A stretch of 21,942 nucleotides of DNA from positions 1-21,942 of IMG/VR virus record IMGVR_UViG_3300011116_000797. One strand, given 5' to 3'. Below, one piece after another: positions 3,366 to 14,824 of the stretch (positions within the stretch are counted from its first letter, which is position 1; the number at the start of each line of letters is the position of its first letter). The stretch comes from a virus. The position numbers were made by a program, and so were the translations under genes. Below the pieces are notes generated by a model. It did not search any database and was not told where the DNA came from. It was given only the letters and a program-made list of their open reading frames with translations.

Positions 3366-3386
3366 TTAGTGACTTCCTTTCTTTAA

Positions 3387-3407
3387 GTGATAGGACTATC
3401 CTATCAC
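3387..3407. promoter_or_regulatory. 9-bp perfect dyad over a -10 box
   Basis: GTGATAGGA, CTA, TCCTATCAC: arms of 9 bp with 3-bp centre. Placement over the -10 box of copy c makes it a good operator candidate; a 5' hairpin is less likely because half of it precedes the transcription start. Confidence 0.5.
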
Positions 3408-3420
3408 GGGGGGCTGACAA
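3398..3420 (-). promoter_or_regulatory. Bipartite early promoter motif, copy c
   Basis: TTGTCA at 3415-3420, 11-nt spacer, TAGGAT at 3398-3403 with TGA before it. Drives the five-gene unit 3365->2453. A perfect 9-bp inverted repeat with 3-bp centre (3387-3407) covers the -10 box. Confidence 0.62.
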
Positions 3421-3430
3421 ATTAAGGCAT

Positions 3431-3481
3431 TTATTCGCTAGGCTCACTGTGATACTGGTCACATTTATTTGCTAGGCTCAT
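3431..3481 (-). CDS. Possible 16-aa leader peptide
   Basis: A 16-codon frame (MSLANKCDQYHSEPSE) about 30 nt downstream of a good promoter (3517-3545), with AAGG before the ATG. Both ends lie in a 21-bp direct repeat and the middle encodes a perfect TGTGA-N6-TCACA palindrome. It could be a real leader ORF, or just a frame open by chance through regulatory DNA. The promoter argues that something is transcribed here. Confidence 0.2.
   Translation of the reverse strand: MSLANKCDQYHSEPSE
3448..3463. promoter_or_regulatory. CRP/GlxR-type palindrome 2
   Basis: Perfect TGTGA-N6-TCACA (centre TACTGG) between the two halves of a 21-bp direct repeat, about 28 bp upstream of promoter copy c and downstream of the promoter at 3517. 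A one-mismatch site (TGTGA-N6-CCACA) lies at 3567-3582. Confidence 0.6.
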
Positions 3482-3516
3482 TGCCTTATCTGTCCTTATT
3501 TAATTGTTATACTAGA

Positions 3517-3545
3517 AGTATAGCAAAGAAATGTCAAAAAGTCAA
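3517..3545 (-). promoter_or_regulatory. Sigma-70-like promoter in the 3366-3660 gap
   Basis: TTGACT (3540-3545), 17-bp spacer, TATACT (3517-3522) with extended TG. The -10 box is one half of TATACT-N3-AGTATA (3508-3522). Transcribes the gap leftwards over the possible 16-aa ORF and the CRP-like site. Confidence 0.5.
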
Positions 3546-3555
3546 ATCCTGCATC

Positions 3556-3564
3556 GGCGTGTCG
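3556..3564 (-). repeat. CGACACGCC element, copy 3
   Basis: GGCGTGTCG on the plus strand (inverted relative to copies 1, 2 and 5), beside the one-mismatch CRP-like site. Confidence 0.45.
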
Positions 3565-3589
3565 TGTGTGAGATACACCACATTTGCCC

Positions 3590-3610
3590 TGTGTATAACC
3601 CTGTGGATAA
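3590..3610 (-). other. Tandem DnaA boxes, gap 3
   Basis: TTATCCACAGGG (minus strand, box at 3602-3610) is followed directly by TTATACACAGGG (box at 3590-3598), a 12-bp direct repeat of two perfect TTATNCACA boxes. Confidence 0.65.
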
Positions 3611-3620
3611 CTTTTGTCGA

Positions 3621-3650
3621 AATTTTGACGGGCTAAATAAATAACCCGCC
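3621..3650 (-). terminator. Terminator-like hairpin of the six-gene unit
   Basis: Minus strand GGCGGGTTA / TAGCCCGTC stem (with wobble pairs) followed by AAAATTT and CGAC. The T-run is weak, but the position and the AAAATTT(T)CGAC tail match the terminator at 797-825. Confidence 0.45.
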
Positions 3651-3660
3651 AAGATCTAAT

Positions 3661-3735
3661 TTACAAAGAGTAAAGAAAACCAAATACAATCATAGCAATT
3701 AGAATAACTAACAATTTATTTTTCCTCAATTTCAT
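3661..3735 (-). CDS. Tiny membrane peptide, 24 aa, nested overlap
   Basis: Overlaps the last 20 nt of the 29-aa gene in another frame. The product (MKLRKNKLLVILIAMIVFGFLYSL) has a basic N-terminus and one hydrophobic helix running to the C-end, oriented N-in by the positive-inside rule. GGGA precedes the ATG by about 8 nt. Ends 11 nt before a terminator hairpin. It follows the trend of leftward units carrying a tiny hydrophobic gene near the 3' end. Confidence 0.45.
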   Translation of the reverse strand: MKLRKNKLLVILIAMIVFGFLYSL

Positions 3736-4115: not shown

Positions 4116-4283
4116 TTATTTAACCTTTCTAGTAGAGATACATACATCATGCATACATGTACCGCTAGGTATGCACATGTCGTGTATAGTGTCGGGGGCT
4201 AAGATGACCTGACCGCATTGGCAGAGGTTCATCATTCCTTTAGGGTAATCGCTAACAGTAGCGAGTTTAGTCCAAATACTCAT
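4116..4283 (-). CDS. Cysteine-rich small protein, 55 aa
   Basis: Starts in an ATGA overlap with the 67-aa gene. Cys21, 23, 37, 43, 48 with His34 and His45 (LCQCGQ, DMCIPSGTCMHDVC) suggest metal binding. The second half is encoded by a stretch rich in alternating purine/pyrimidine ATG/CAT steps. Stop is directly before the ATG of the 54-aa gene. Function unknown. Confidence 0.58.
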   Translation of the reverse strand: MSIWTKLATVSDYPKGMMNLCQCGQVILAPDTIHDMCIPSGTCMHDVCISTRKVK

Positions 4284-4483
4284 TTAGACACCTTCCAATC
4301 TGACCACTCAGGAAGACGGTCAGGGTCGCCGTCATAGTAGTAACGCTCTATGTTATTTTCACACACCTCGCAGAATGTGTATTGTGTATCCGCTACATCA
4401 GAGATTGCACTGATGAATGGAGTGTGTAGTTTGCACACCTCTAGTTTAAGAGGGGCTTGATAGTATCTATCTAGTGTAGTCAT
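4280..4483 (-). CDS. Zinc-finger-like small protein, 67 aa, first gene of its unit
   Basis: First gene behind the bipartite promoter 4539-4561, ribosome site AAAGAAAGGTGG. Cys17-x2-His20 and Cys38-x2-Cys41 form a possible CxxH...CxxC zinc site; the C-terminal half reads NIERYYYDGDPDRLPEWSDW. Similar short proteins with CxxC..NI and a W-rich tail occur in actinobacterial phages to my memory; no function is assigned. A 5-bp stem-loop (AAGGG/CCCTT) sits in the leader just before the ribosome site. Confidence 0.72.
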   Translation of the reverse strand: MTTLDRYYQAPLKLEVCKLHTPFISAISDVADTQYTFCEVCENNIERYYYDGDPDRLPEWSDWKVSK

Positions 4484-4538
4484 TTGAGACCACCTTTCTT
4501 TAAGGGATTTCTGTACCCTTGTTTTTCTTTATACTGTA

Positions 4539-4561
4539 AGTATAGCAGGGGGGTCTGACAA
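4539..4561 (-). promoter_or_regulatory. Bipartite early promoter motif, copy d
   Basis: TTGTCA at 4556-4561, 11-nt spacer, TATACT at 4539-4544 with TGC before it. Drives the six-gene unit 4483->3661. TATACT-N3-AGTATA (4530-4544) overlaps the -10 box, the same dyad as at 3508-3522. Confidence 0.62.
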
Positions 4562-4594
4562 ATTGGAGGGGACAAAAGGTATCAATTCGGACAT

Positions 4595-4610
4595 TGTGAG
4601 ATTCATCACA
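4595..4610. promoter_or_regulatory. CRP/GlxR-type palindrome 3
   Basis: Perfect TGTGA-N6-TCACA (centre GATTCA), 34 bp upstream of promoter copy d. Followed at once by a degenerate copy (4611-4626) that runs into a DnaA box. Confidence 0.62.
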
Positions 4611-4624
4611 TGTGATACACATCA

Positions 4625-4653
4625 TGTGGATAACTGGTTAGACCTGTGGATAA
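4625..4653 (-). other. Paired DnaA boxes, divergent gap
   Basis: Two perfect AGTTATCCACA sites on the minus strand (boxes 4625-4633 and 4645-4653), 20 bp apart, about two helical turns, so on the same face. Confidence 0.65.
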
Positions 4654-4669
4654 CTATTTTTCGATCCCC

Positions 4670-4685
4670 TGTGACGGACATCACA
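4670..4685. promoter_or_regulatory. CRP/GlxR-type palindrome 4
   Basis: Perfect TGTGA-N6-TCACA (centre CGGACA), between the DnaA boxes and the GACACG-G-CGTGTC palindrome. Confidence 0.62.
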
Positions 4686-4690
4686 TCCAG

Positions 4691-4704
4691 GACACGGCGT
4701 GTCG
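4691..4704. repeat. CGACACGCC element, copy 4, palindrome
   Basis: GACACG-G-CGTGTC, perfect 6-bp arms with 1-bp centre, 3 bp upstream of the -35 box at 4707. Confidence 0.5.
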
Positions 4705-4706
4705 TC

Positions 4707-4735
4707 TTGACTTTTGGCGGTATTTATGATACCCT
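4707..4735 (+). promoter_or_regulatory. Sigma-70-like promoter inside the divergent gap
   Basis: TTGACT (4707-4712), 17-bp spacer, TACCCT (4730-4735) with TGA before it. No ORF follows before the next promoter, so it could make a longer leader for the 4883 unit, a small RNA, or a replication primer (inference). Confidence 0.4.
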
Positions 4736-4769
4736 TACAGGTATACAATTAAATAACAGGGTAAAACGA

Positions 4770-4785
4770 TGTGACCCAAATCACA
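4770..4785. promoter_or_regulatory. CRP/GlxR-type palindrome 5
   Basis: Perfect TGTGA-N6-TCACA (centre CCCAAA), 38 bp upstream of promoter copy e. Confidence 0.62.
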
Positions 4786-4797
4786 AAAATACTTTCC

Positions 4798-4809
4798 CGA
4801 CACGCCCGA
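4798..4809 (+). repeat. CGACACGCCCGA element, copy 5
   Basis: Exact 12-mer as in copies 1 and 2, 13 bp upstream of promoter copy e; no inverted partner here. Confidence 0.45.
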
Positions 4810-4822
4810 GAAACAGGCTAAT

Positions 4823-4845
4823 TTGTCAGTGGTAGGTGCTAGAAT
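4823..4845 (+). promoter_or_regulatory. Bipartite early promoter motif, copy e
   Basis: TTGTCA at 4823-4828, 11-nt spacer, TAGAAT at 4840-4845 with TGC before it. Drives the rightward unit 4883-5411; the only plus-strand copy with exact spacing. Confidence 0.62.
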
Positions 4846-4882
4846 ACTAGGTATAGAGATTAAATAAAGAAAGGTGTTCAAG

Positions 4883-5059
4883 ATGAATACACTAAATAGA
4901 ATAGTAGCAGAGCAACAGGCTCGCTACAAGATAGAGCATGAGGCTAACCTTGCTAAGTACCCTTGGATTAAAGAAAGCATAGAGGCTTATCGCAATGCTA
5001 CTCCTGAGCAATTAGCACAGGTTGAGGCTATCCTTAGAAAGAGAGGTCAGATTAAATGA
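4883..5059 (+). CDS. Small helical protein, 58 aa, first gene of rightward unit
   Basis: Follows the bipartite promoter 4823-4845 and AAAGAAAGG at 4866-4874. The longer frame from GTG 4874 would begin inside that ribosome site, so the ATG at 4883 is chosen. The protein is helical: IVAEQQARYKIEHEANLAKY, WIKESIEAYRNATPEQLAQV, then a basic end RKRGQIK. Overlaps the next gene by ATGA. Function unknown; the charged helical make-up is like small phage regulators, but no HTH is visible. Confidence 0.68.
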   Translation: MNTLNRIVAEQQARYKIEHEANLAKYPWIKESIEAYRNATPEQLAQVEAILRKRGQIK

Positions 5060-5151
5060 CACTAGATGAATACAAGGCGCACGTTGAGGCGCAACGCAAG
5101 GCAAGCACCTTGCAAGCCCTATCACTACTAATTAAGAAAGAAAGTAAATAA
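5056..5151 (+). CDS. Tiny helical peptide, 31 aa
   Basis: ATGA overlap with the 58-aa gene; the stop is directly followed by the next ATG. Product begins MTLDEYKAHVEAQRKASTL and ends LLIKKESK, an amphipathic helix with basic end. The AAGAAAGAAAG encoding its end serves as ribosome site for the next gene. Confidence 0.5.
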   Translation: MTLDEYKAHVEAQRKASTLQALSLLIKKESK

Positions 5152-9840: not shown

Positions 9841-11480
9841 GAATTTTAGGAGTTGTGGCCTCTTCTATTTCAAGAGTTGCATCACTTATTGATACTTTTA
9901 CTAGAACAACTGCTGGATCTTTGGGTGGTACATGGTCTAATATTATTGGAACTTGGTTTGCAAATGGAACCAAAGCAGAAAATAATACAGTAACTTCAAA
10001 TATTGGTTTAACTGCAGCAGAAGCAGGTGGAGAAAATCCTTTAATTCTTGCAGATGTAACCGCAGATAATGTTGGTGTTGCATTTTGGGTAACTGATTCT
10101 TCCAACTATTGGGCAGCAAGTGTAAATCAAGCAATTGTAACAACAAACACATACTCGTCATCATGTTCTACATATGCATCACAGGGATATGGCTCAACCT
10201 ATACATGTACTAGTTATGCTGCTTGCACATCTACAAGTGCTAGATACGGTGCTTGCATAACATACGCTGCAACATATGCTGCATATTGTGCCACATATGG
10301 CGGAAGATATGGAACAATCTGTACAAGTTATGCCACTCCAAGTGGTCCAACAGTGTGTATAACAAGTGGACAAACTTTTGCAGGCTATAGCCAAATCTGT
10401 AGTACATACACTTCAGTATTATCAAATACAACATACTCTGGAGGAACTAGAACTTTTAATCTTATAAAAAAGGTTGGAGGAAGTTTATCAACAGTTTATA
10501 CCAAGGTAATTACAGCAGCAATTTCATCTTATAGAATTATTGCAACATCAACAGGATGGCTGTGGGTCCAAGCATTTCCATCTACTGGACAATCTGGTGT
10601 TGAAACTATTGATTATTTATCACAACCATCTTCTCCTGTAAAGGGAACAAAGCAAGGACTTTACATTGATCTTAGTGGATATCTGCAAACTAAAACTGCA
10701 GACAATGTTTCTATTTCTGGATCAAGCGTTTCAAGTGTTTATACTGGTACAGCAACAGTTTCAGGTGGAACATTAAGTTCAGATGATGCATATTACTATA
10801 GAACATTTACTGGAAATGGATCATTAACAGTTACTGGTTCACTCAAATGTGATGTTTTAATTGGTGCAGGTGGTGCTGGCGGTAATGGTGGTTCTGGCGG
10901 TGGCTCATATACTTCAGGTTATGTTGCAACTACTGGAAGTTATGCTTTTGTTATTGGTGCTGCTGGAAATAATAGTACAGGAATTGGAATTACTGCGTAT
11001 GCTGGAGGTGCTGGTGGTGCAACAGCCACTTCAGCAGGTAGTGCTGGTGGTTCTGGAGGCGGTGGAGGATATTCTAACAACACTAGTCAAGTCAACGTTG
11101 GTGGCGCAGCAACAAGAGCATCTGGTGGAACAATAACTTATGGTAACGCTGGTGGAACTAGTCAGGCTACAATTTACTTTACAGGCTCTGGTGGTGGTGG
11201 AGGTTGGGGAGAAGCAGGCGGATCAAACGGAAATGCAGGCGAAGGCACTGGTCTTTATGGAATCGGTGGTTCTGGCGGAGCGGGAGTTAGTACTTACAGT
11301 AACTGGGGCGCAGCAGCAGGCATTGGACAACTCTCAGGTGGACTTCGTTGGTTCGGTGGCGGTGGCGGTGGCTCTGCACAATCTGGCGGGGGTAATGGCC
11401 TAGGAACTGGAGCAAATACTTCAGGAGTTAGTAGCAGTGGTTTTGCAATGGTTAGATATTTGAAATCGGCGGTAGCATAA
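9837..11480 (+). CDS. Large adhesin: lectin-like domain with Cys/Tyr-repeat insertion and polyglycine C-terminus
   Basis: 547 aa from a GTG in a GTGA overlap. Residues 19-95 (DTFTRTTAGSLGGTW ... VAFWVTDSSNYWAA) and 203-278 (TRTFNLIKKVGGSLSTVYTK ... GLYIDLS) look like the two halves of a concanavalin-like beta-sandwich. Between them, residues 105-195 are an insertion with eight Cys (110, 124, 130, 140, 151, 162, 174, 188) and many Tyr, built on C(S/T/A/I)(T/S)Y repeats. Residues 342-530 are rich in Gly runs (GGAGGNGGSGGG and others), as in polyglycine-helix adhesins at the tips of some phage fibres. The C-terminus GFAMVRYLKS is common in such Gly-rich phage proteins. Likely the receptor-binding adhesin. 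Starts at the end of the short fibre gene and overlaps the next gene as TAATG. Confidence 0.7.
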   Translation: MRILGVVASSISRVASLIDTFTRTTAGSLGGTWSNIIGTWFANGTKAENNTVTSNIGLTAAEAGGENPLILADVTADNVGVAFWVTDSSNYWAASVNQAIVTTNTYSSSCSTYASQGYGSTYTCTSYAACTSTSARYGACITYAATYAAYCATYGGRYGTICTSYATPSGPTVCITSGQTFAGYSQICSTYTSVLSNTTYSGGTRTFNLIKKVGGSLSTVYTKVITAAISSYRIIATSTGWLWVQAFPSTGQSGVETIDYLSQPSSPVKGTKQGLYIDLSGYLQTKTADNVSISGSSVSSVYTGTATVSGGTLSSDDAYYYRTFTGNGSLTVTGSLKCDVLIGAGGAGGNGGSGGGSYTSGYVATTGSYAFVIGAAGNNSTGIGITAYAGGAGGATATSAGSAGGSGGGGGYSNNTSQVNVGGAATRASGGTITYGNAGGTSQATIYFTGSGGGGGWGEAGGSNGNAGEGTGLYGIGGSGGAGVSTYSNWGAAAGIGQLSGGLRWFGGGGGGSAQSGGGNGLGTGANTSGVSSSGFAMVRYLKSAVA

Positions 11481-11854
11481 TGGCTCATTGGGCAGAATTA
11501 GATGAAAATAATGTTGTTCTACGTGTAGTTGTAGGAAGTAATGATGATTTTAATGAAGGCTATGACTGGATAGTTGAAAATCTGGGTGGAACATGGATTA
11601 GAACAAGTTATAATACAAAAAGAGGAATACACACTTTAGACGGTATTCCAATTAGAAAAAATTTTGCATTTCCTGGATATACCTATGATAGTGAAAAGGA
11701 TGCCTTTATTGCTCCACAACCATACCCCTCTTGGATTTTTAATGAAGAGGCTTGTGACTGGGATCCACCAATAGAAATGCCAGATGATGGAGAATATTAT
11801 ATTTGGAGAGAAGATCTCGTTAACTGGTATATTCCAATAGTAGAAGATTTATAA
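11480..11854 (+). CDS. Conserved fibre-associated protein, 124 aa
   Basis: TAATG overlap with the adhesin. The sequence has blocks I recall from many marine and freshwater phage proteins near tail fibres: MAHWAELDENNVVLRVVVGS at the start, GGTWIRTSYNTKRG, FAFPGYTYDSEKDAFIAPQP, YPSWIFNE, and a Trp-rich end. The usual family length is similar. Function is not established; a chaperone or small virion component for the adjacent fibre is the usual guess. Confidence 0.72.
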   Translation: MAHWAELDENNVVLRVVVGSNDDFNEGYDWIVENLGGTWIRTSYNTKRGIHTLDGIPIRKNFAFPGYTYDSEKDAFIAPQPYPSWIFNEEACDWDPPIEMPDDGEYYIWREDLVNWYIPIVEDL

Positions 11855-12352: not shown

Positions 12353-13060
12353 ATTTTAAAAATTGTAAAATTTATACCAAATTCTAATGCTCAAACTACA
12401 GTAAGTCCTATATCAGCAAATATGTCTATACCACAATGGTATAAAGATGGAGAAACAGAGTATTTTCACTCTGGGGAAAAACAAAAAGGCATGAAAACAT
12501 GTATTCCTTTTTTAGAATCATTATCAATAGGATATTTGCTAAGAACCTCTATTAATATTTATATTAAAAAAAATCACAATAAATCAATATCTATTGATTA
12601 TGATGATGAGTTTGACTCAAGACTACTACCACCAGTTTCTCTTAGACCCCTTCAATTTGGAAGTACAATTCCAAGACCAGCAGGACACTCAGATTTAAAT
12701 TTAGTTTGGCAGGCAGCCTGGGGTTGGCAAACTCCAAAAGGATACAGCAGTTTAGTTACTCATCCACTAAATAGGTCCGATTTGCCATTTACAACAACTG
12801 CTGGTATGATTGATAGTGATAAGTATATTTCTGCTGGTAATCTTTCATTTTTTTTAAAAGAAGACTTTGAAGGACTTATACCTAAGAACACTCCTTTTGC
12901 ACAAATAATTCCAATTAAAAGAAATAGTTGGAATGGGATTGTTTCTTCAGAGTTAGTAGAAAAGGCAAATAAAATAGAAAAAGATGGTCATGACGGTGGA
13001 TATAAAAAATATATGTGGGAAAGGAAAAAATATAAAATGGAGATAAAAAATGAGCATTGA
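12353..13060 (+). CDS. DUF6065-like phage protein, probable ATT start
   Basis: 235 aa if translation starts at ATT 12353, eight nt after a strong AAAGGGGG ribosome site; the first ATG is at 12422, with no ribosome site. The upstream codons read LKIVKFIPNSNAQTTVSPIS, which looks like the usual N-terminus of this family. Further blocks: IPQWYKDG, CIPFLESLSIGY, WQTPKGYSSLVTHPLNRSDL, NLSFFLKEDFEGLIPKNTPF and AQIIPIKRNSW. These blocks match phage proteins I remember under DUF6065 (from memory), function unknown. It precedes a glycosyltransferase and a sugar epimerase with which it overlaps, so a glycan-related role is plausible (inference). Confidence 0.65.
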   Translation: MLKIVKFIPNSNAQTTVSPISANMSIPQWYKDGETEYFHSGEKQKGMKTCIPFLESLSIGYLLRTSINIYIKKNHNKSISIDYDDEFDSRLLPPVSLRPLQFGSTIPRPAGHSDLNLVWQAAWGWQTPKGYSSLVTHPLNRSDLPFTTTAGMIDSDKYISAGNLSFFLKEDFEGLIPKNTPFAQIIPIKRNSWNGIVSSELVEKANKIEKDGHDGGYKKYMWERKKYKMEIKNEH

Positions 13061-13793
13061 TAAAGTAACAGTAGGTTGGATTGACTCTGGATCAGTGACA
13101 AGTGGGTTTGCAGCGTATGTTGCTCAAATTCTTTTGCATAGATCTGATAAGATTGATAATGTTCTTGCTGCTTCTGGCCCATACCTTTCAGCAAATAGAA
13201 ACAAGATGGTGTTACAGTTTTTAGAAACGGATTCTGAATGGCTTTTATCACTTGATAGTGATTTATTAATTGATTTAGAGTCTTTTGACACTCTTTTATC
13301 AGTAGCAGATGAAAAAGAATACCCTATTGTTGGTGGAAAATATTATTTACCACTAAAGGGAGGATTGCTTATTGCAGCACAGGCCTGGCATCCAGAAGTT
13401 CCTGGTGGTGGAGTATTTATTGATGAAACAGATATTTCAACAACAGACCTCATGATTGATGACTTACATTCACTTGGCGGAGGGTATTTGTTAATTCATA
13501 GAACTGTATATGAAACAATTTTAAATAATTCAACAAACCCAATGCCTTGGTTTAAAGATTATTATGACGATTACCCATATGATGCTTGGATTAGTGATGA
13601 TATTCATTTCTTTAAACTTGTTCATGAAAATGGATTTAAAACTGCTCTTTGTACAAAAGCAACTTCCCAGCATTTAAAAACAAATATATTAGGAGATTTC
13701 CAGTATCTTTCTTTTAAAGAACAACAAAGTAAAGAATTTAATTCACATGCTAACCATAAACGTAAATCTTGGGTAGTAAAGGGGAAAAAGTGA
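13050..13793 (+). CDS. GT-A type glycosyltransferase
   Basis: 247 aa. An N-terminal beta-alpha fold is followed by WLLSLDSDLLID at residues 64-75, where D69-S70-D71 is the DxD metal/nucleotide-sugar site of GT-A glycosyltransferases. Downstream come YPIVGGKYYLP and SLGGGYLLIHRTVYE, then WISDDIHFFKLVHENG (acceptor/ED-like region) and TSQHLK. Transfer of a sugar to a virion or host glycan is expected; donor and acceptor cannot be read. Overlaps the gene before by 11 nt and the dehydratase by a GTGA. Confidence 0.75.
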   Translation: MSIDKVTVGWIDSGSVTSGFAAYVAQILLHRSDKIDNVLAASGPYLSANRNKMVLQFLETDSEWLLSLDSDLLIDLESFDTLLSVADEKEYPIVGGKYYLPLKGGLLIAAQAWHPEVPGGGVFIDETDISTTDLMIDDLHSLGGGYLLIHRTVYETILNNSTNPMPWFKDYYDDYPYDAWISDDIHFFKLVHENGFKTALCTKATSQHLKTNILGDFQYLSFKEQQSKEFNSHANHKRKSWVVKGKK

Positions 13794-14824
13794 GAGTTCT
13801 TTTAACTGGTGCTGGTGGCTTTGTAGGCCACCATACATTGTCTCATTTGCTTAAAACAACAGACTGGGATTTTGTAGTAACAGATTCATTTAGGCATTAT
13901 GGGACATCTGCAAGGCTTCGTGCAGTATTTGAAGAACTTCCAGGGGAAAGAAATAGGGTAAAGGTTGTTACCCACGACCTAACAACTCCAATTGATGCCG
14001 TTACTTCAAAAGAGTTTGGCAATATTGAAGTTATTATAAATATGGCATCAGACTCCCATGTTGACAGATCTATTGAAAACCCTAGGCCTTTTGTTGAAAA
14101 TAATATTGCCATTGCCTTGACTATGTTTGATTATGCAAGAACATTAGATAATCTTCAATGTTTTATTCAGATTTCTACAGATGAGGTTTATGGCCCAGCC
14201 TTGAATGGTGTTTTGCATAAAGAGTGGGAGCCACTGGTTCCATCAAATCCTTATTCTGCAAGTAAAATGGGGCAAGAAGCAGTTGCTAACGCTTATTGGA
14301 GATCCTATAATATTCCTTTGGTAATTACCAATACAATGAATATTATTGGTGAGCGTCAAGATGTAGAAAAGTTTGTTCCAAAAACTATTGCTAAATTTTT
14401 AAAGGGTGAGTCAATGCTGGTTCACTCTAAAGAAGTAAACGGAAAGTATATTTCTGGAAGCAGATTTTATTTACATGCAAGAAATCAGGCTGACGCACTA
14501 AGACACTTGGTTGAGCATTTTATTAAGACTCCACACAGATATACTGATGGTCTTGCTAAGCCCGAAAGATTTAATGTTAAAGGTGAGGTAGAAATAGCAA
14601 ATGATGATATGGTAGATCTTATTGCAACTATGATGCCTTTTGAAATAAATTTTGCTCCAGTAAAATATGTAAATGTAGAAGGAACACGCCCAGGACATGA
14701 TTTAAGATATGGTCTAGATGGATCTAAACTTAAAGATTTAGGCTGGAATCCTCCAGTGCCTTTTGAAAAATCATTAAAGAGAATTGTAGATTGGACGGTT
14801 AAAAATCCAGTATGGCTGAAATAG
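13790..14824 (+). CDS. NAD-dependent sugar epimerase/dehydratase (RmlB-like SDR)
   Basis: 344 aa from GTG 13790, which overlaps the upstream stop as GTGA and follows AGGGGA by 4-5 nt; a TTG further upstream is less likely. Extended short-chain dehydrogenase: VRVLLTGAGGFVGHH at the N-terminus (Gly7, 10, 13 bind NAD), NMASDSHVDRSIENP at 84-98, STDEVYG at 129-135, and catalytic YSASK (Tyr155, Lys159). The SDSHVD and TDEVYG blocks are typical of dTDP-glucose 4,6-dehydratase and relatives. It would convert a nucleotide sugar for the adjacent glycosyltransferase. Exact substrate unknown. Confidence 0.82.
   Translation: MRVLLTGAGGFVGHHTLSHLLKTTDWDFVVTDSFRHYGTSARLRAVFEELPGERNRVKVVTHDLTTPIDAVTSKEFGNIEVIINMASDSHVDRSIENPRPFVENNIAIALTMFDYARTLDNLQCFIQISTDEVYGPALNGVLHKEWEPLVPSNPYSASKMGQEAVANAYWRSYNIPLVITNTMNIIGERQDVEKFVPKTIAKFLKGESMLVHSKEVNGKYISGSRFYLHARNQADALRHLVEHFIKTPHRYTDGLAKPERFNVKGEVEIANDDMVDLIATMMPFEINFAPVKYVNVEGTRPGHDLRYGLDGSKLKDLGWNPPVPFEKSLKRIVDWTVKNPVWLK

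Follow-up and report, generated by a model that had tools for sequence, protein, structure and literature searches.

The 399-bp gap at positions 4484-4882 of the window, an IMG/VR virus record of 21.9 kb (21,942 nucleotides) analysed at its full length, is probably a divergent early-promoter region assembled from a modular kit. The kit appears to serve the whole early region in a family of tailed phages that infect Actinobacteria, encode WhiB and are roughly 100 kb in size. The putative early timing is taken from the gene layout. Many small leftward genes occupy the left 5 kb of the window, and collagen-like, tail fibre and sugar genes fill its right two thirds. Glycosyltransferase-like and GDP-mannose dehydratase-like genes lie beside the tail genes at 12422-14824, and the GC content climbs to 52% at 11001-11500, where a 547-aa gene ends, in surroundings of ~34-38%.

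The gap separates the leftward gene of a 67-aa CxxC protein (FCEVCENNIE family; 4280-4483, - strand), which has relatives in 62 IMG/VR loci (alignment A1), from the rightward gene of a 58-aa protein (4883-5059, + strand) with relatives in 38 IMG/VR loci. Ribosome-binding sites were recognised in the sequence of both, AGAAAGG at 4493-4499 (- strand) and AAAGAAAGG at 4866-4874 (+ strand). The AGAAAGG sites fit the 3' end of actinobacterial 16S RNA as its complement. No gene was called within 4484-4882 by the home-made gene caller, which missed some small genes. Two reading frames inside the gap, 4596-4835 (+ strand) and 4500-4625 (- strand), were left uncalled and were rejected as genes; the translated matches examined for them were short pieces accounted for by conserved DNA motifs. 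Rfam and tRNA scans gave no match, the INPHARED phages contained no relative of the gap, nor any of two proteins encoded by the window, and no relative of the 67-aa family was found in MAG contigs (84,980 bacterial and archaeal genomes).

The inventory of sites given by the first-pass annotation, namely three CRP-type palindromes, two DnaA boxes, two CGACACGCC elements and three promoters without any gene, proved to be real, and all of these elements lie within 4484-4882. The palindromes are perfect copies of TGTGAN6TCACA, and both DnaA boxes are perfect TTATCCACA on the - strand. At the left end, comparison with the promoter pattern termed P2 below places a leftward promoter, P2-left, with an extended -10 TGCTATACT at 4539-4547 (- strand), a predicted start at ~4532 and a TGTCAG element at 4555-4560 (- strand) within AATTTGTCAG, the distance from TGTCA to the -10 hexamer being 11 bp. 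Upstream of it, the sequence contains a TGTCCG box at 4589-4594 (- strand), followed by palindrome 1 at 4595-4610, centred at about -70.5 of P2-left. DnaA box 1 occupies 4625-4633, and box 2, on the same strand and 20 bp away, occupies 4645-4653, a distance that belongs to the phased spacings found in relatives. The rightward promoter P1 is preceded by palindrome 2 (4670-4685, centred at -64.5 of P1) and by a C-element of class A at 4696-4704 (- strand), which reads GGCGTGTCG on the + strand and lies immediately upstream of the -35 element TTGACT (4707-4712, + strand; part of TTGACTTTT). The extended -10 of P1, TGATACCCT, is at 4727-4735 (+ strand), with a predicted start at ~4742. The second rightward promoter, P2-right, comprises palindrome 3 (4770-4785, centred at -74.5), the second C-element CGACACGCC at 4798-4806 (+ strand; -54), TGTCAG at 4824-4829 (+ strand; AATTTGTCAG) and the extended -10 TGCTAGAAT at 4837-4845 (+ strand), with a predicted start at ~4852.

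Over the whole window, the TGTGAN6TCACA palindromes number 5 against 0.04 expected, the DnaA boxes 4 against 0.26 and CGACACGCC 5 against 0.00, and no shuffle reached any of these counts. A generic scan for promoters gave 2 promoter-like sites in 4300-5100 against a shuffled mean of 1.7, so the three promoters of the gap are persuasive solely through comparison with relatives. A terminator-like stem at 4813-4793 (- strand) was discarded as merely the context of the C-element; by eye, the stem is not conserved.

Two stereotyped promoter types, P1 and P2, recur in the window and in its relatives; their positions are given on the assumption that transcription starts 7 nt after the -10 hexamer. 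In P1, a CRP site with its centre at -64.5 is followed by the C-element, then TTGACTTTT and, 17 or 18 bp from TTGACT, an extended -10. The C-element of P1 occurs either as class A, GGCGTGTCG at -46 to -38, or as class B, CGACACGCC at -54 to -46, and it is present at 76 of the 87 TTGACTTTT promoters versus 3 of the 93 other TTGACA/T promoters. The C-element plus -35 pattern had no match in 84,980 bacterial and archaeal genomes and was found in at least 120 stretches of IMG/VR virus contigs; the combination is therefore phage-specific. In relatives, the P1 -10 often lies 35-64 nt ahead of a start codon. The region from -12 to +5 of P1 (4728-4743 and 3508-3522 in the window) often contains an inverted repeat whose arms appear to vary together (TATACTTCTAGTATA, ATACCCTTACAGGTAT, TAGGATACTCCTA); its arm score is 4.08 versus 3.53 +/- 0.07 on permutation with kinship uncontrolled, and pairing in fixed columns is weak.

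The P2 promoters follow the pattern WWTGTCAG-N7-TGnTAnnnT, in its fuller form beginning AAWWTGTCAG, and mostly stand 29-66 nt ahead of a start codon. The spacer from TGTCA to the -10 hexamer is 11 in all 236 distinct P2 promoters; the spacer counts peak sharply at 11, and those at 12 bp were an artefact of the search pattern. A good -35 element is mostly absent, with 44 of the 236 matching 5-6 of the 6 TTGACA bases at 16-18 bp versus ~2 in shuffles. Because these 44 also carry a good -35 match, TGTCAG is not strictly a replacement of the -35 element, and an operator in the P2 spacer is an equally possible reading. TGTCCG occurs at -50/-51, -59/-60 and -68 of P2 promoters; these boxes, ~9 bp apart upstream of TGTCAG, are possibly extra sites for the same protein.

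The distances of the CRP and DnaA sites from both promoter types are fixed. Within -45 to -100 of P1, 66 of 104 CRP sites are centred at -64.5, and at P2 the preferred centres are -64.5 (44), -74.5 (40) and -85.5 (21 of 152), in steps of 10-11 bp. Adjacent DnaA boxes on the same strand and less than 80 bp apart show spacings of 11-13, 20-21 and 41-42 bp only. A DnaA box stands at -91 in 22 P2 promoters, none of which has a CRP site at -50 to -92 (Fisher test, 6e-10, uncorrected for relatedness). Because of this fixed geometry and mutual exclusion, the CRP and DnaA proteins are read as acting on the same promoters through a single docking slot. Against this reading, neither a CRP site (-50 to -92) nor a DnaA site (-84 to -105) was found at 80 of 180 P1-like promoters, although 93 of the 180 lack TTGACTTTT, or at 73 of 250 P2 promoters.

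To the first-pass annotation, the gap had looked like the decision point of the phage, combining a candidate origin with an early switch. It is instead one copy of a repeated module, since the remaining perfect CRP palindromes, DnaA boxes and CGACACGCC elements of the window all sit in three more gaps of the leftward region (775; 2341-2402; 3448-3610). The second copy (3366-3715, - strand) comprises P2 at 3403, a CRP site at 3448, P1 with TTGACTTTT at 3522, a C-element at 3556 and a DnaA box at 3602; the third (2227-2452, - strand) contains P2 at 2275, a CRP site at 2341, a DnaA box at 2368 and a C-element at 2394; the fourth (579-835, - strand) is reduced to P2 at 611, a generic TTGACA promoter at 737 and a C-element at 775. 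Within 3431-3480, a CRP palindrome is flanked on either side by direct repeats TGAGCCTWAGCAAATAA, which are conserved in relatives and are found in the orthologous gaps of, for example, L051, L059, L011 and L095.

The same concentration in gaps was observed in 61 dereplicated IMG/VR loci, the window included, where gaps of at least 80 bp were compared with coding DNA. The density of TGTGAN6TCACA is 1.15/kb in gaps versus 0.024/kb in coding DNA and that of TTATCCACA 1.04/kb versus 0.006/kb, and CGACACGCC has 192 intergenic occurrences versus 1 coding, so that for the three motifs the density in gaps exceeds that in coding DNA ~48- to 800-fold, counts that share ancestry and are inflated by common descent. 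Control words with scrambled letters turn up 0-1 times in the gaps of these loci, and the TGTGA/TCACA half-sites are separated there by N6 in 223 sites and by N5, N7 and N8 in 0, 1 and 0. In the 12 long relatives (records of 96-118 kb), most sites are confined to one stretch of 10-25 kb. A 106-kb relative read whole (G005) has all its P2 promoters, CRP sites and CGACACGCC elements within 28.7-36 kb and most of its DnaA boxes within 23.7-39.8 kb; another record (G001) possesses CGACACGCC and lacks CRP and DnaA sites. In the syntenic gaps of relatives the order of sites is alike: in most cases a CRP site lies ~50-57 bp, or DnaA boxes lie ~71 and 113 bp, away from the leftward P2, and the elements on the right follow a similar sequence. 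Since the module recurs in other gaps of the window and of relatives alike, the gap is not a unique decision point.

The motif in the CRP slot differs in a subgroup. About nine contigs (e.g. L058, L059, L230, L243, L317) keep the C-element, in several of them as class A with TTGACTTTT, and are poor in CRP sites or lack them altogether. What they contain is a direct repeat, GTTAY-N6-GTTAY, with an 11-bp period reminiscent of the sites of OmpR/PhoB-family regulators. The repeat with spacing 6 occurs at 4.9 per 10 kb versus 0-0.65 at other spacings in this motif-enriched set, and next to promoters its centre falls at -63 or -73/-74 (8 cases at P1, 6 at P2). The direct repeat in the place of the CRP site would correspond to a swap of host regulator, which is only suggestive because the set was partly selected by motif and few cases underlie the positions.

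As to the proteins that may bind these sites, neither a CRP HTH nor DnaA domain IV was detected in the 12 long relatives, so the CRP-type and DnaA factors should be those of the host. Neither DNA polymerase I nor sigma region 4 had a match above cut-off. WhiB, a protein of Actinobacteria (PMC6282962), is encoded by all 12 long relatives, above cut-off, and C. glutamicum was the sole match among 14 controls. The GACAC core is the motif that WhiA uses in either orientation in Streptomyces (PMC3781837), where this protein works together with WhiB (PMC4850268). Among 180 P1 promoters, 39 have GACAC at -53 and 40 have GTGTC at -43. By this analogy, a WhiA-like protein acting with the phage WhiB is the best candidate for the C-element binder, a lead for a site that is probably occupied by another factor than those of the slot. 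Elsewhere in G005, L342:280-975 (+ strand) showed a sub-threshold match to the sigma-D-binding region of RsdA (PF16751, E 6e-4) and may encode an anti-sigma-like protein.

It is likely that the gap works as follows. Leftward transcription would start from P2-left at ~4532, and rightward transcription from tandem promoters, the distal P1 at ~4742 and the proximal P2-right at ~4852. P1 would be a promoter of sigma-A type with an extended -10, and the P2 promoters carry the phage-specific TGTCAG at its set place in the spacer. Upstream of each promoter there would be a docking slot for a host activator, where a CRP-type dimer may sit at about -64.5 (P1), -74.5 (P2-right) and -70.5 (P2-left), with host DnaA bound farther out on the tandem boxes. 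The C-element CGACACGCC, between slot and promoter core at P1 and P2-right, is probably bound by a further factor. The kit thus appears to put small early genes under the control of a CRP-type carbon sensor and of the replication initiator DnaA of the host.

Other readings of the gap were weighed against this divergent early-promoter region. It is unlikely, and yet the most plausible of them, that the host factors have the opposite sign and serve as repressors or gauges that restrain early promoters until host cAMP or DnaA-ATP shifts, as host cAMP-CRP represses the pir, dam and recE promoters of phage T1 (PMC6737242). Taken by themselves, the sites would suit repression equally well. However, they lie upstream of the promoter core and not over it, their 10-11 bp phasing is the geometry expected of activators that contact RNA polymerase, and P2 mostly lacks a good -35, as expected if a helper is needed. 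We consider it improbable that the gap is the replication origin of the phage, at which DnaA boxes recruit the host initiator and transcription from P1 primes or activates replication. A promoter stands next to two perfect DnaA boxes that share a strand and are 20 bp apart, a divergent gap is a common place for an origin, and DnaA-stimulated transcription activates ori-lambda according to references given in PMC3985674. Nevertheless, almost every long relative has its DnaA boxes spread over several distinct places, in gaps kilobases apart and not in a single cluster; they keep set distances from promoters, and the -91 box of P2 excludes CRP sites. Moreover, the AT content of the gap peaks at only 73% over 60 bp, in a segment that overlaps P2-right, and the cumulative GC skew of the 106-kb relative stays level around the gap and reaches its minimum 6 kb off.

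An early lysis/lysogeny switch of a temperate phage, with the palindromes as operators of a phage repressor, is very improbable. Divergent promoters with several operator-like sites would suit it, and sites repeated across gaps recall dispersed operators, for instance the stoperators of cluster A mycobacteriophages; against this, neither tyrosine integrases (PF00589) nor large serine recombinases (PF07508) were found in the 12 long relatives, whose records may be incomplete, and the palindromes keep strictly to the spacing of CRP sites and are phased to promoters, their slot being filled by another motif in a subgroup. The promoter at 4707 had been described as lacking an ORF of its own and as a possible source of a small RNA or replication primer. 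It does fire into ~110 bp of the gap before P2-right without an immediate ORF, and we give a small regulatory RNA hardly any credence: there is no Rfam match and no + strand terminator between P1 and the rightward gene at 4883, whose start codon lies 141 nt downstream of the predicted P1 start; the DNA below P1 is taken up by control sites of P2-right; and P1 in relatives often stands 35-64 nt ahead of a start codon, so that this promoter would read into the rightward gene. Of the first-pass annotation, then, the gene-free divergent regulatory region with its conserved and functional-looking CRP-type, DnaA and CGACACGCC elements has stood, and the unique decision point, the origin, the ORF-less promoter with its small RNA and the lysogeny switch are not supported.

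Returning to the divergent early-promoter region, a wider reading, to which we give somewhat less than even chances, is that one chassis of TTGACTTTT and TGTCAG promoters with CGACACGCC runs the early genes of the family, with an exchangeable slot for CRP, DnaA or OmpR/PhoB-type factor sites. If so, takeover of the cell would sense the carbon and replication state of the host, and evolution would swap the sensor and keep the chassis. That host CRP or DnaA can control individual phage promoters is already known; in the open-access papers searched, no description was found of a combined CRP/DnaA module that is repeated through the early region of a phage lineage with a changing slot occupant. 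The kit would offer a readable regulatory code for uncultured actinophages and a testable tie between infection and host physiology, and the phage-specific motifs CGACACGCC and TGTCAG could be used as baits for transcription factors.

Among known systems, class I CRP-dependent promoters of the lac type share with the phage promoters TGTGAN6TCACA upstream of the -35, strict spacing and phasing of 10-11 bp. The CRP centres of E. coli class I promoters are at -61.5, -71.5 and -82.5, and those of the phage at -64.5, -74.5 and -85.5, a constant offset of 3 bp if transcription starts 7 nt after the -10 hexamer. Because of this offset, the phage promoters are not classified as lac-type class I, only as working like it; they differ also by the often intervening CGACACGCC and by their setting as phage early promoters. 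Middle promoters of phage T4, in which a MotA box WWWTGCTTtA stands 12 +/- 1 bp from the -10 and sigma is appropriated (PMC2988021), resemble P2 in an A/T-rich stretch followed by a TG-containing element just past the -35 position, a fixed short spacer, TGn and an extended -10. However, the P2 element is TGTCAG and not TGCTTtA, and its likeness to the MotA box is positional. T1 and lambda, through the CRP repression and DnaA-stimulated transcription mentioned above, likewise have promoters tied to host CRP or DnaA, but here the two are combined in one repeated module and alternate at P2, whereas in T1 the effect is repression and concerns few promoters. The WhiA/WhiB promoters of Streptomyces are similar in the GACAC core near promoters, in both orientations, with WhiB present in every long relative, and differ in that the phage motif is 9-10 bp long and has two fixed positions (-54 and -46). 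Lastly, the start-associated sequences of cluster K mycobacteriophages, which are located at ribosome-binding sites, and the cluster A stoperators, which are bound by a phage repressor, are also short motifs that recur in numerous gaps of a single actinophage genome; in contrast to them, the motifs described here are phased to promoters.
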